Virus record (IMG/VR): IMGVR_UViG_3300030105_003647
Location: 5,566 to 26,687 of that record
Direction: 5' to 3' (one strand)
DNA length: 21,122 nucleotides
Source of the DNA: a virus
The position numbers were made by a program, and so were the translations under genes. Of this stretch, positions 2,586-14,323 are shown piece by piece. Position 1 is the first letter of the stretch. Every line of letters starts with the position of its first letter. The notes beneath the pieces are model-generated. The model saw only the letters and a program-made list of their open reading frames with translations. It was not told the origin of the DNA and ran no database searches.

Positions 2586-3256
2586 TATTTTTTTCTTTTA
2601 ATAACTTCAGTTTTAAACTCTACCTTTGAATCTTTTCCTCTTTTACCATCATCTTTACGAAGTCCAGATCCCTCTCTCATATAAAGTTTTTTTGAAGTTT
2701 TTAAGTTTTTTGGTCTACTCTTTGGAATAGGAGGTCTACTCTTTGGAACAGGGACAGATACTTTTTTATCTACTTTTTTATCTTTTGGTTTGTTACCCCC
2801 CACTAAAGTTAATGCCAAGGCACCTGTTCCAGTTTTCACGGTACCCCTAATTCCTTTGCCTATACTAGTGGATCTATTGCTAATACCCGACAACCCCGGT
2901 TTATTAGTTTTTTTATCTTTTGTTAATCTATATTCTTTACCTCTTTTTGGCTGAAGCCTTGCTTTCTTCACAGTAGATATAGCTATATCTTTTGTTGTTT
3001 TACCTGTTTTTTTAAGTAGCTCTTTAGCTGTTTTTATTACTTTAGGAAGAATTTTTGAACCAGCTTTAATAGCTACTCCTCCAACAGGAAGAAGCGTACT
3101 TCCGGCAGTAACAACATCACTTGCTTTAATTCTTCTTGGGTTTTTTCTATTTTTTTCTTCTATAGCTTGGTTTACATCGGTTTTGGTACCACCTAAACCT
3201 TTTGTTTCATTTTGTTTTTTAACAGCTGCTTTAAATTTTTTGTCTTTTTCGCTCAT
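2585..3256 (-). CDS. Lys-rich basic protein between TerL and portal (unknown function)
   Basis: A 223-residue, extremely Lys-rich protein. The N-terminus is charged; residues about 46-67 (VVTAGSTLLPVGGVAIKAGS) and 142-154 are the only apolar stretches, each short and Gly-rich, so they are weak membrane candidates. Residues 171-183 contain a repeated proline motif, PKSRPP followed by IPKSRPK. The composition resembles DNA-associated or internal virion proteins of phages, but I recognise no family. The start is supported by AGGAGA 6 bases upstream, which overlaps the end of TerL. Its stop overlaps the next gene as TAATG. It lies in the TerL-to-portal operon, so a structural or packaging role is likely by context only. 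Confidence 0.65.
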   Translation of the reverse strand: MSEKDKKFKAAVKKQNETKGLGGTKTDVNQAIEEKNRKNPRRIKASDVVTAGSTLLPVGGVAIKAGSKILPKVIKTAKELLKKTGKTTKDIAISTVKKARLQPKRGKEYRLTKDKKTNKPGLSGISNRSTSIGKGIRGTVKTGTGALALTLVGGNKPKDKKVDKKVSVPVPKSRPPIPKSRPKNLKTSKKLYMREGSGLRKDDGKRGKDSKVEFKTEVIKRKK

Positions 3257-5881: not shown

Positions 5882-6814
5882 ATGACTTATAAAAAATATA
5901 ACGTAACTAAAAAAGATCATTACCAAGAAATTACAAATGCTTTTATTGAATTGTTAGAAACTGAAAAAGGAAATTTTATTAAAACGTGGCAAGCTAACAG
6001 TTTAAACGGGCATTATAACTATATTACTAAAAAGGAATATAGAGGAACCAATGTTTTTTCAACGGCTATGAGTACCTTTAAAAACGGCTTTAAATCTAAT
6101 GAATGGGCAACTTTTAAACAATGGCAATCTAAAGGTTTTAAAGTTGATAAAGGTTCAAAAGCAACTTATATAATATTCTTTAGTAAAGTTGAAATAGAAG
6201 ATAAAAAAGAAAAAGATAAAAAGTTTATTCCAATTCTTAAAGGTTATCCAATTTTTAATGCAGATCAAACCAATTATAAAGGTACTGAAGAATATTTAAA
6301 TAACGTGGGGCAACTTGTAAAAGATTTAGAATTTAACGAATTCTCAAATATAAGAATAGATCATTTAATTGATCATACAAAAGTAACTATTAAACATGGT
6401 GGAAATTCGGCTTTTTATAGTACTAATTTAGATTTTATTCAAATGCCTAATAAATCAAGCTTTAAAGAGATAGAAAATATTTCTAAAGAAGTGGGTTATT
6501 ATTCAACTCTATTACATGAGTTAAGCCATTGGTCGGGTAATGAAAAAAGATTAGATAGAAAAATTCAAAATAAATTCGGTTCTAATGCATATGCTTTTGA
6601 GGAACTAGTCGCAGAAATATCAAGTGGCTTTTTATGTACTATATTAGAACTTGTTAAACTTCCCACCCCAAACCATGCAAAATATATTAATAATTGGTTG
6701 GAGGTTTTAAAGAGTGATAAAAAAGCAATAGTAAAAGCTTTTTCTTTAGCTCAAAAAGCAAGTGATTTTATTTTAGATCATGAAGAAATAAGAGGTATAA
6801 AAGAAGTAGCTTAA
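5882..6814 (+). CDS. ArdC-like antirestriction protein (ssDNA-binding + zinc metallopeptidase)
   Basis: A 310-residue protein with the ArdC architecture. The N-terminal part (about 10-130) matches the ssDNA-binding domain, with the conserved run TWQANS...NGHYNYITKKEYRGTNVFST and later WATFKQWQSKGFKVDKGSKAT. The C-terminal half is a zincin-like peptidase with HELSHWSG at 212-219 (HExxH zinc-binding helix) and a downstream YAFEELVAEISSGF (237-250) supplying the third ligand. ArdC proteins on plasmids protect incoming DNA against type I restriction and bind single-stranded DNA; a similar anti-defence role on DNA entry is inferred here. It follows the TATGGGA box and has an AGGGGAAT ribosome-binding site. 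It sits in the AT-rich cassette between the two terminase genes, looking like an accessory acquisition. Confidence 0.88.
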   Translation: MTYKKYNVTKKDHYQEITNAFIELLETEKGNFIKTWQANSLNGHYNYITKKEYRGTNVFSTAMSTFKNGFKSNEWATFKQWQSKGFKVDKGSKATYIIFFSKVEIEDKKEKDKKFIPILKGYPIFNADQTNYKGTEEYLNNVGQLVKDLEFNEFSNIRIDHLIDHTKVTIKHGGNSAFYSTNLDFIQMPNKSSFKEIENISKEVGYYSTLLHELSHWSGNEKRLDRKIQNKFGSNAYAFEELVAEISSGFLCTILELVKLPTPNHAKYINNWLEVLKSDKKAIVKAFSLAQKASDFILDHEEIRGIKEVA

Positions 6815-13177: not shown

Positions 13178-13301
13178 AGCTAAACAACGATCAAATCAAC
13201 ATAAACGTAAATACGGAAACTCTAAAAAAGGTAATGGTTTTAGATTTTTCGGATGCAGAAAACAAGGATTTAAATCTGTTAAAGGTGGAGCCAGATTATG
13301 A
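13161..13301 (+). CDS. 46-residue very basic protein
   Basis: Starts MKAIHKAKQRSNQHKRKYGN, with GGGAGGAATATAA upstream; the longer in-frame form has no ribosome-binding site. About 40% Lys/Arg/His, Gly-rich near the end, one Cys. Nucleic-acid binding is likely from charge only. Its TGA overlaps the methyltransferase start as ATGA. Confidence 0.55.
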   Translation: MKAIHKAKQRSNQHKRKYGNSKKGNGFRFFGCRKQGFKSVKGGARL

Positions 13302-14323
13302 ACCGAGATCATATAGACCTTTGTTCGGGGATCGGTGGCTTTGCTTTAGGATTCTCGTGGAGTGATTTAGACACCACCCCAAAACTATTCTGTGACACCG
13401 ATCCTTGGTGTAGAAAAGTATTAGCCAAGAACTTCCCGAATGTACCGATAGCAAATGATGTTAAGGAGATTGCAAATGAGCCAAGACGATTTATTCAAAG
13501 AAAACCATTCATCCTCACGGGGGGCTATCCTTGTCAACCTTACTCGGTTGCAGGAAAAAGAGATAAAGAAGACCCTCGTGTCATCTTTCCGTTCATCCAT
13601 AGAATTGTTGAACAAGTCCGACCCTCTTGGTGCGTTTTCGAGAATGTATATGGACACTTCTCAATGGGACTTGACGAGGTTCTCGTTCAAATGGAAACCA
13701 TTAATTACGCAACACGGACGTTTATCGTTCCGTCTAGTTCAGTCGGAGCTTTACACAAAAGGGACAGACTCTGGATCGTCTGCAAAGACTTGGGCGACCC
13801 CCAACACGATGGATCATCTTCCACCGAGATCGGAGGAGGCAACGAGGAAACTTCAGAACGGACACAGAAAAGGACGGAAACGTCCGAGCAATCTGAGGGA
13901 GCAAGTCGATCCCGACACAGTCAAACTATATCCGACACCGAGAGCCTCGGATGTGGAGGGGGGAATGGCGAGCAACGTGGAACTGAACAACGGAAGATTC
14001 TCGAGGACGAACAAGGACGGAGTTCGTTGGGGAGTGAAGTTGAGGGATGCAGTCAATCACATGGAAACATTCCCGACACCAAGAGCGAGCGAATACAAAG
14101 ACTGTGGAGCAGTTGGGAGCAAGAGTCAGATTCACATGGAGAAGAGATCATATCTTTGTGCGAAAGTGAAAGATCCCCAAAAGCCATCTGGAAAATTGAA
14201 CCCCGAGTGGACAGAGTGGTTGATGGGTTATCCAAAAGGGTGGACAGAATTAAAGGATTAGGCAATGCAATAGTGCCTCAAAATGCTATGATGATAGCTA
14301 ATGCAATATATAGGAGTTTGTAA
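13298..14323 (+). CDS. DNA (cytosine-5) methyltransferase
   Basis: A 341-residue C5 methyltransferase, which would transfer a methyl group from S-adenosylmethionine to cytosine, probably shielding phage DNA from restriction. Motifs in order: I, DLCSGIGGFALG (7-18); the acidic residue of motif II, CDTD (32-35); IV, GGYPCQPYSVAGK with catalytic C79; VI, ENV (115-117); VIII, HKRDRLWIV (153-161); X, GLGNAIVP (320-327). Residues about 168-300, the target-recognition region, are unusually hydrophilic and low in apolar residues. By hand count, 13801-13920 is 54% G+C against about 32% at 14281-14340. That is also the part overlapped by a long +1-frame ORF. GGAG lies 8 bases before the ATG. The site recognised cannot be predicted. 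Confidence 0.92.
   Translation: MNRDHIDLCSGIGGFALGFSWSDLDTTPKLFCDTDPWCRKVLAKNFPNVPIANDVKEIANEPRRFIQRKPFILTGGYPCQPYSVAGKRDKEDPRVIFPFIHRIVEQVRPSWCVFENVYGHFSMGLDEVLVQMETINYATRTFIVPSSSVGALHKRDRLWIVCKDLGDPQHDGSSSTEIGGGNEETSERTQKRTETSEQSEGASRSRHSQTISDTESLGCGGGNGEQRGTEQRKILEDEQGRSSLGSEVEGCSQSHGNIPDTKSERIQRLWSSWEQESDSHGEEIISLCESERSPKAIWKIEPRVDRVVDGLSKRVDRIKGLGNAIVPQNAMMIANAIYRSL
13476..14261 (+). CDS. Overlapping +1-frame ORF inside the methyltransferase gene (TP-repeat, LNPEW protein)
   Basis: A 261-codon ORF in the +1 frame of the methyltransferase, wholly inside it. The ATG at 13476 (MSQDDLFKEN) has AAGGAG at 13463-13468, an ideal 7-base spacing, although that region already codes for the enzyme. 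The product has three (W/Y/F)-x-TP motifs: WATPNTMD (113-120 counted from an in-frame ATG at 13455), YPTPRASD and FPTPRASE. It ends in KLNPEWTEWLMGYPKGWTELKD. I remember these motifs as a recurrent protein family of phage methyltransferase loci. The stop falls within the codons for methyltransferase motif X. It could be a second gene, or an alternative C-terminus reached by frameshifting. Translation is unproven. Confidence 0.5.
   Translation: MSQDDLFKENHSSSRGAILVNLTRLQEKEIKKTLVSSFRSSIELLNKSDPLGAFSRMYMDTSQWDLTRFSFKWKPLITQHGRLSFRLVQSELYTKGTDSGSSAKTWATPNTMDHLPPRSEEATRKLQNGHRKGRKRPSNLREQVDPDTVKLYPTPRASDVEGGMASNVELNNGRFSRTNKDGVRWGVKLRDAVNHMETFPTPRASEYKDCGAVGSKSQIHMEKRSYLCAKVKDPQKPSGKLNPEWTEWLMGYPKGWTELKD

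Follow-up and report, generated by a model that had tools for sequence, protein, structure and literature searches.

M.EcoHK31I, which recognises YGGCCR, is a C5-cytosine DNA methyltransferase made of two polypeptides, both of which are needed in vitro, and its beta chain is encoded within the gene for alpha in another reading frame; M.EaeI is of the same two-polypeptide kind. The multispecific enzymes of Bacillus subtilis phages are single-chain, single-frame proteins, in which several consecutive target-recognition domains (TRDs) of ~40 residues each lie between motifs VIII and IX. Multispecific C5 methyltransferases from these phages (SPR, phi3T and SPbeta type) were reportedly described by Behrens et al. 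in 1987 (cited in PMC4081073). M.AquI and M.EcoHK31I are both two-polypeptide C5 methyltransferases: The two chains of M.AquI are split in the variable region, and in M.EcoHK31I the large subunit carries motifs I–VIII and X as well as the predicted TRD, with the small subunit carrying motif IX only (PMC3404938). Totally overlapping C5 genes have also been described in the 5093 group of Streptococcus thermophilus phages, with MM1 and Tn5252 being cited (PMC5601072).

Here, we analyze a marine phage locus in which two nested genes very probably encode a two-subunit C5-cytosine DNA methyltransferase, with alpha as the catalytic chain and beta providing target recognition and motif IX.

Structure of the Locus

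The window, by which we mean the whole 21,122-nucleotide stretch of marine phage DNA that was analyzed, lies in a 26.7-kb virus record. On its plus strand, an open reading frame at 13298–14323 (frame 0, ATG at 13298) encodes a C5-cytosine methyltransferase chain of 341 residues, alpha, which is made up of a large domain with motifs I–VIII, an overprinted linker and motif X. Conserved columns of the sequence place motifs I–VIII (DLCSGIGG, PCQ, ENV, RDRLW) at 13316–13780, with GGYPCQP starting at 13520, ENV at 13631 and HKRDRLW at 13745. The low-complexity linker (residues 170–312; 13805–14233) shares its DNA with the modules and motif IX of beta, and the motif X core (GLGNAIVPQNA; 14255–14287), which begins with GLGNAIVP at 14255, is placed by both the sequence and the predicted structure.

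Beta (13476–14261, plus strand, stop included; 261 residues) is encoded in the +1 frame, as it is in nearly all relatives. This frame is open from an ATG at 13455, and its stop codon (14259–14261) falls inside the alpha codons for LGNAIVP of motif X. The Shine-Dalgarno sequence AAGGAG (13463–13468) lies inside the alpha Lys-Glu codons, with a spacing of 7 nt to the ATG at 13476. The first 40 codons form a leader (13476–13595) that is weakly constrained as judged by the alpha third-position rate and has low pLDDT; the rest of the N-terminal part (WKPLITQHGRLSFRL; 13596–13780) lies on the alpha motifs up to VIII and is constrained in both frames. Three modules follow, assigned by module clustering and each opening with a [WYF]xTP motif: module 1 (WATPNTMD..., type M1) at 13791–13928, with WATP at 13791; module 2 (YPTPRASD..., type M4) at 13929–14069, with YPTP at 13929; and module 3 (FPTPRASEYKD..., type M5) at 14070–14186, with FPTP at 14070. 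Beta then ends with motif IX (GKLNPEWTEWLMGYPKGWTELKD; 14187–14258), within which LNPEWTEWLMGYP begins at 14196 in the +1 frame; conserved columns support its placement, and alpha reads this DNA as the stretch that precedes motif X. The two chains overprint each other: The catalytic motifs of alpha share their DNA with the N-terminal part of beta, and the modules of beta share theirs with the linker of alpha.

The G+C content is 54% at 13800–13999, compared with about 29–35% in the flanks. A first-pass annotation of the window had reported PCQ, ENV and GNAIVP in the frame from 13298, a +1 frame open from before 13476 to 14261 with AAGGAG seven nucleotides ahead of an ATG, three (W/Y/F)xTP motifs, a stop within the codons of motif X, and an overlap of 54% G+C, far above its surroundings; every one of these features was recovered at the positions given above.

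Some 7 kb upstream, the gene at 5882–6814, which lies on the strand of the methyltransferase, matches phrog_7245, "anti-restriction protein" (E 6e-72), which is compatible with, and no proof of, a methyltransferase role against host restriction.

Motif Distribution and Predicted Structures

Alpha matches PF00145 in Pfam (E 3e-29) and phrog_363 in PHROG (E 3e-55). It carries motifs I, IV (PCQ), VI (ENV), VIII (RDRLW) and X (LGNAIVP), which, together with the class fold seen in the predicted structure, place it in the PF00145 class, and it is without motif IX; alpha alone does not provide the motif IX and the TRD that members of the class usually have between motifs VIII and X of one chain. Beta gave no useful match in Pfam, NCBIfam or PDB sequence searches, and in PHROG it matches phrog_1008, "DNA methyltransferase" (E 3e-24), in agreement with the methyltransferase sequence previously recognized in the +1 frame from the letters alone. 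When aligned by eye, the stretch LNPEWTEWLMGYPKGW of beta corresponds to the canonical motif IX (cf. LTPRECWRLQGFPDW of the single-chain enzyme of Streptococcus phage 11865), and the profile built on this part of beta also matches the single-chain protein of phage DLane at the position of motif IX. The full C5 motif set is that of the pair of chains, not of alpha alone.

AlphaFold (AF2) modeled residues 1–169 of alpha as the large domain and residues 314–340 as the motif X helix, mostly with confidence, with residues 170–312 disordered at a pLDDT of about 28–37. In a fold search, the alpha model was matched to M.HhaI with a Z of 23.6 over 194 residues. The predicted structure of alpha accordingly combines a large domain resembling that of M.HhaI with the motif X helix, the overlapped stretch being disordered. 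Beta alone was modeled poorly (pLDDT 59, pTM 0.27, residues 1–23 with a pLDDT under 50), an outcome to be expected if beta needs alpha in order to fold, and a fold search with this low-confidence model yielded no informative match, all Z being 4.2 or less.

Distribution of the Nested Arrangement

More than 200 loci were collected by scanning IMG/VR, GTDB genomes and phage records, with some contigs fetched twice. It should be noted that beta was the query in several of these scans and that the sample is biased towards loci containing it; the informative counts are therefore those of distinct loci that were not picked for openness. In 215 of the 229 loci with a motif IX match, this motif lies in the +1 frame relative to motifs I–VIII and motif X is again in frame 0; most of the remaining loci are truncated at contig ends. 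Among the distinct loci having motifs VIII, IX and X, counted without selecting for an open alpha, alpha is open in 152/157 and beta in 153/157. Three loci (L060–L062) misled this count through a second copy of motif IX, as seen on examining L060. Two rumen relatives (L132 and L134) are frame-broken, which counts against the two-subunit reading; these breaks could reflect assembly error or slippage (phase variation). The break in L134 is at about 2980–3000, near a repeat coding for RERERERE.

Depositors annotated these loci variously with alpha only, with beta only or with both open reading frames, and in some Paenibacillus phages both are annotated as methyltransferases. In Klebsiella phage PIN1 (L239), only beta is annotated and the open alpha frame is not; in the Salmonella plasmid CP022659 (L238), only alpha is annotated and the open beta frame is not. 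One relative (L107, 447–1580) has alpha motifs I–III unlike those of the other members and the usual sequence from motif IV onward; its alpha is probably a recombinant.

Selection on Both Reading Frames

Pairwise differences among 14 close homologues, given for codon positions 1/2/3 of alpha, are 0.12/0.05/0.28 upstream of beta, 0.24/0.06/0.03 across the modules and 0.08/0.05/0.36 downstream of beta. In finer figures for the window's clade, the third position goes from 0.281 to 0.031 in the modules and then to 0.357, with the first position at 0.237 in the modules. Because the first position of an alpha codon is the third of a beta codon, the modules are seen to evolve as coding sequence of beta. 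Three further groups of homologues, with 35 loci of the module order M1-M2-M3 among them, have the same codon-position profile. Along the N-terminal part of beta the picture is graded: Over its first 40 codons the alpha third-position value is 0.26, near the 0.28 found upstream, so that there is almost no constraint from beta, a point against the two-subunit reading, and over the next 60 codons it is 0.11, with constraint in both frames.

A further trace of the double use is the near-absence of T at the third position of beta codons before AA, AG or GA (4/5,935, compared with 3,441/11,478 elsewhere), which is required for the alpha frame to stay open. The overlap has a G+C content of 0.52 compared with 0.40 in the flanks and is the richer part in 126/129 relatives. 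A horizontally acquired, G+C-rich insert was considered as the sole cause of the 54% in the window and rejected, given that the overlap is richer in 126/129 relatives from many backgrounds; a high G+C content characterizes the dual-coded stretch across the family, in keeping with the avoidance of T before AA/AG/GA. When alpha was recoded synonymously with the codon usage of the neighboring genes, the 269-codon open run of the +1 frame was reached in none of 20,000 recodings (maximum 179), and with the gene's own or a flat codon usage it was reached in 1–4 of 20,000. Taken together, the sequence data indicate that both frames are conserved and under selection.

The start of beta shows a signal of its own. 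Of 132 distinct loci, 117 have ATG and 13 have GTG as the start codon; a Shine-Dalgarno-like sequence precedes it in 123. Wherever the Lys-Glu pair is present at this site, the Lys codon of alpha is AAG (104/104, compared with 173/431 elsewhere; p 2e-35, ignoring the kinship of the sequences), and most loci have an in-frame stop one or four codons upstream of the start. The site of initiation, comprising Shine-Dalgarno sequence and start codon, is under selection as judged by these codon choices, and this, combined with the upstream stop, makes internal initiation the likely route to beta. There is no need to assume a frameshift from alpha, the product of which would be a chain without motif X. 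The first-pass annotation had named synonymous-site constraint, and +1 homologues with a conserved start and ribosome-binding site, as tests of its proposal of a dual-coded region; the drop of the alpha third position from 0.28 to 0.03 in the modules answers to the former, and the 117/132 ATG codons and 123/132 Shine-Dalgarno-like sequences to the latter.

Putative Recognition Modules

Modules were cut at [WYF]xTP and clustered by average linkage, single linkage having chained most of them into one group; boundaries and clusters depend on this simple cut rule and on the threshold. So defined, 124 distinct betas comprise 386 modules, which fall into 79 clusters and 55 orders. The number of modules per beta ranges from one to five, the beta of the window having three, and the median length is 43 residues. 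One module type can be found at different positions and with different neighbors, and modules more than 65% identical occur on alpha domains less than 45% identical; M5, shared by the window's clade and another locus (L109), is one such case. M7 is found at 64% identity in both Klebsiella phage PIN1 and a Salmonella plasmid, the alpha domain of the latter being 34% identical to that of a marine relative. The order of modules is fixed within some groups, as M1-M4-M5 in the window's clade and M1-M2-M3 in 35 relatives.

Judged by these sequences, beta is an array of shuffled modules, and from this modularity we infer that each module is a working TRD with its own target. Literature searches, which mostly covered papers outside subscription journals, turned up no description of such an array or of how widespread the family is.

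Related Loci with Other Arrangements

A single-chain counterpart is found in Mycobacterium phage DLane, where gp65 (L241, 1261–2808) contains motifs I–VIII, four [L]PTP modules, motif IX and motif X in one open reading frame. Module profile matches to this protein were obtained at 6e-5, 4e-4 and 4e-3, and the motif IX match at 1.2e-4; as the modules lie between motifs VIII and X, they occupy the canonical position of the TRD. Two further PTP modules are encoded just upstream, in the +1 frame. In phage Scottish, a close relative of DLane, the protein is split in two genes. Mycobacterium phages Lucyedi (gp88/gp87, L240) and Vagabond (gp6/gp5, L236) likewise have two open reading frames with the same module type, in the M.AquI-like order of motifs I–VIII followed by PTP modules, motif IX and motif X in the +1 frame.

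Further arrangements are seen in other loci. Gordonia phage Neville gp75 (L234, 1486–2349) has motifs I–VIII, IX and X all in frame 0, and its +1 frame contains a PTP module and a good match to the N-terminal part of beta (E 1e-15) and ends before motif IX. Streptococcus phages 11865 (L232) and P0091 (L237) encode in frame 0 a complete single-chain C5 enzyme, motif IX included, overlapped across the catalytic motifs by an open +1 frame of 139–142 residues, which in 11865 has a weak match to the N-terminal part of beta (E 0.004). [WYF]xTP modules are absent from the +1 frame of both, and this frame may be a relic, or its openness may simply follow from the conservation of alpha.

A Two-Subunit Model and Its Alternatives

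In the arrangement we propose, ribosomes would translate alpha from 13298, and a second initiation at the internal Shine-Dalgarno sequence and ATG (13463–13476) would give beta, read in the +1 frame of that mRNA. Alpha would fold as the large domain, with AdoMet binding, the catalytic Cys of PCQ, ENV and the motif X helix; the part of alpha that connects motif VIII to motif X would be a disordered linker, for which the main need is to stay open so that motif X is reached. Beta would consist of a row of target-recognition modules of ~40 residues followed by motif IX, corresponding to the small domain of an ordinary C5 enzyme, and the two chains would assemble into one enzyme whose target sequences are set by the beta modules. 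Phages could then change specificity through the exchange of modules readable in both frames, and the purpose would be self-methylation against host restriction. The motif split and the module shuffling are shown by the sequences, as are the conservation and selection of both frames and the selection of the start site; we infer the translation of beta, the assembly of the subunits, one target per module and the anti-restriction role. That such loci form a class of phage methyltransferases with their specificity in a dual-coded shuffled array, each exchange of a module, be it from phage to phage or from one position to another, leaving both frames open and rewriting the targets of beta and the linker of alpha together, seems to us the better bet, held with some reserve.

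Within a two-subunit enzyme, the array could instead be one recognition surface with a single specificity, or the additional modules could be inactive relics. The fixed orders M1-M4-M5 in the window's clade and M1-M2-M3 in 35 relatives would suit this, as would the presence of a single module in some relatives, but the number of modules varies from one to five with order and neighbors free, and all modules are strongly constrained, as fits independent units like those of the multispecific B. subtilis phage enzymes; we regard this version as possible and rather unlikely. A programmed +1 frameshift, giving a fusion of the N-terminal part of alpha to the C-terminal part of beta instead of or besides free beta, would unite motifs I–VIII, the modules and motif IX in one chain, as in DLane. 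Such a fusion would be without motif X, yet alpha keeps motif X in frame 0 across more than 140 linker codons, and beta has its own selected Shine-Dalgarno sequence and start, with an in-frame stop upstream in most relatives, which leaves a frameshift improbable.

The view that beta is a protein in its own right with another role, such as regulation or anti-restriction, overprinted on a complete methyltransferase could draw on the lack of a Pfam or PDB relative in our searches and on the Streptococcus phages, in which a small +1 open reading frame overlaps a complete C5 enzyme. We consider it very improbable, as the alpha of the window is without motif IX and, in the model, without a folded TRD, the motif IX of beta aligns with that of a single-chain relative, and phrog_1008 is labeled DNA methyltransferase. 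Hardly credible at all is an untranslated +1 frame kept open by chance or by the composition of alpha: Alpha is G+C rich with few +1 stops, and 1–4 of 20,000 recodings with its own usage had a run as long, but the collapse of the third position in the overlap, its recovery after beta, the repetition of this pattern in three more groups and the 153/157 open beta frames all speak against it, and a chance open frame was rejected on the recoding and substitution patterns.

Returning to the first-pass annotation, its idea of a conserved dual-coded target-recognition region with two products is supported by the homologues, the codon-position rates, the start site and the single-chain relative. The two forms it had envisaged for the second product fare less well: A frameshifted enzyme of different specificity is disfavored by the start of beta and the in-frame stop upstream, and an unrelated second protein by the presence in beta of the motif IX absent from alpha. 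Added here are the naturally split enzyme of the M.EcoHK31I kind and the role of the [WYF]xTP motifs as marks of shuffled modules.

The two-subunit reading would make a single enzyme, with a specificity code that can be read, out of a pair of often misannotated open reading frames. Should every module have a single target, linking modules to motifs in a few methylomes would make phage methylation predictable from metagenomes. The family is also a strong natural example of extensive overlap on one strand with selection in both frames, seen in more than 100 distinct relatives.

Comparison with Known Systems

M.EcoHK31I, by its described motif layout, resembles the present locus in having motifs I–VIII and X on alpha and motif IX on beta, and in having the gene for the small subunit nested in another frame. 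It differs in that its predicted TRD is placed in the large subunit, which counts against the two-subunit reading here, whereas the constrained recognition region of the present family lies in beta and comprises one to five modules; this suggests that the place of the M.EcoHK31I recognition domain should be re-examined. In M.AquI, motif X is on the small subunit, whereas here it is on alpha, and beta lies wholly within alpha. The S. thermophilus 5093-group phages share with our locus two C5-related open reading frames on the same DNA in different frames; among the overlapping streptococcal loci, P0091 and 11865 differ in that their frame 0 is a complete enzyme with motif IX. The multispecific B. 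subtilis phage enzymes likewise have consecutive putative TRD modules before motif IX, and in phages, but on a single polypeptide, whereas here the array is on a separate subunit encoded in the +1 frame; they are the nearest precedent for the array. What goes beyond the known overlapping and split C5 enzymes is a beta that constitutes a shuffled, dual-coded and widespread putative recognition array.
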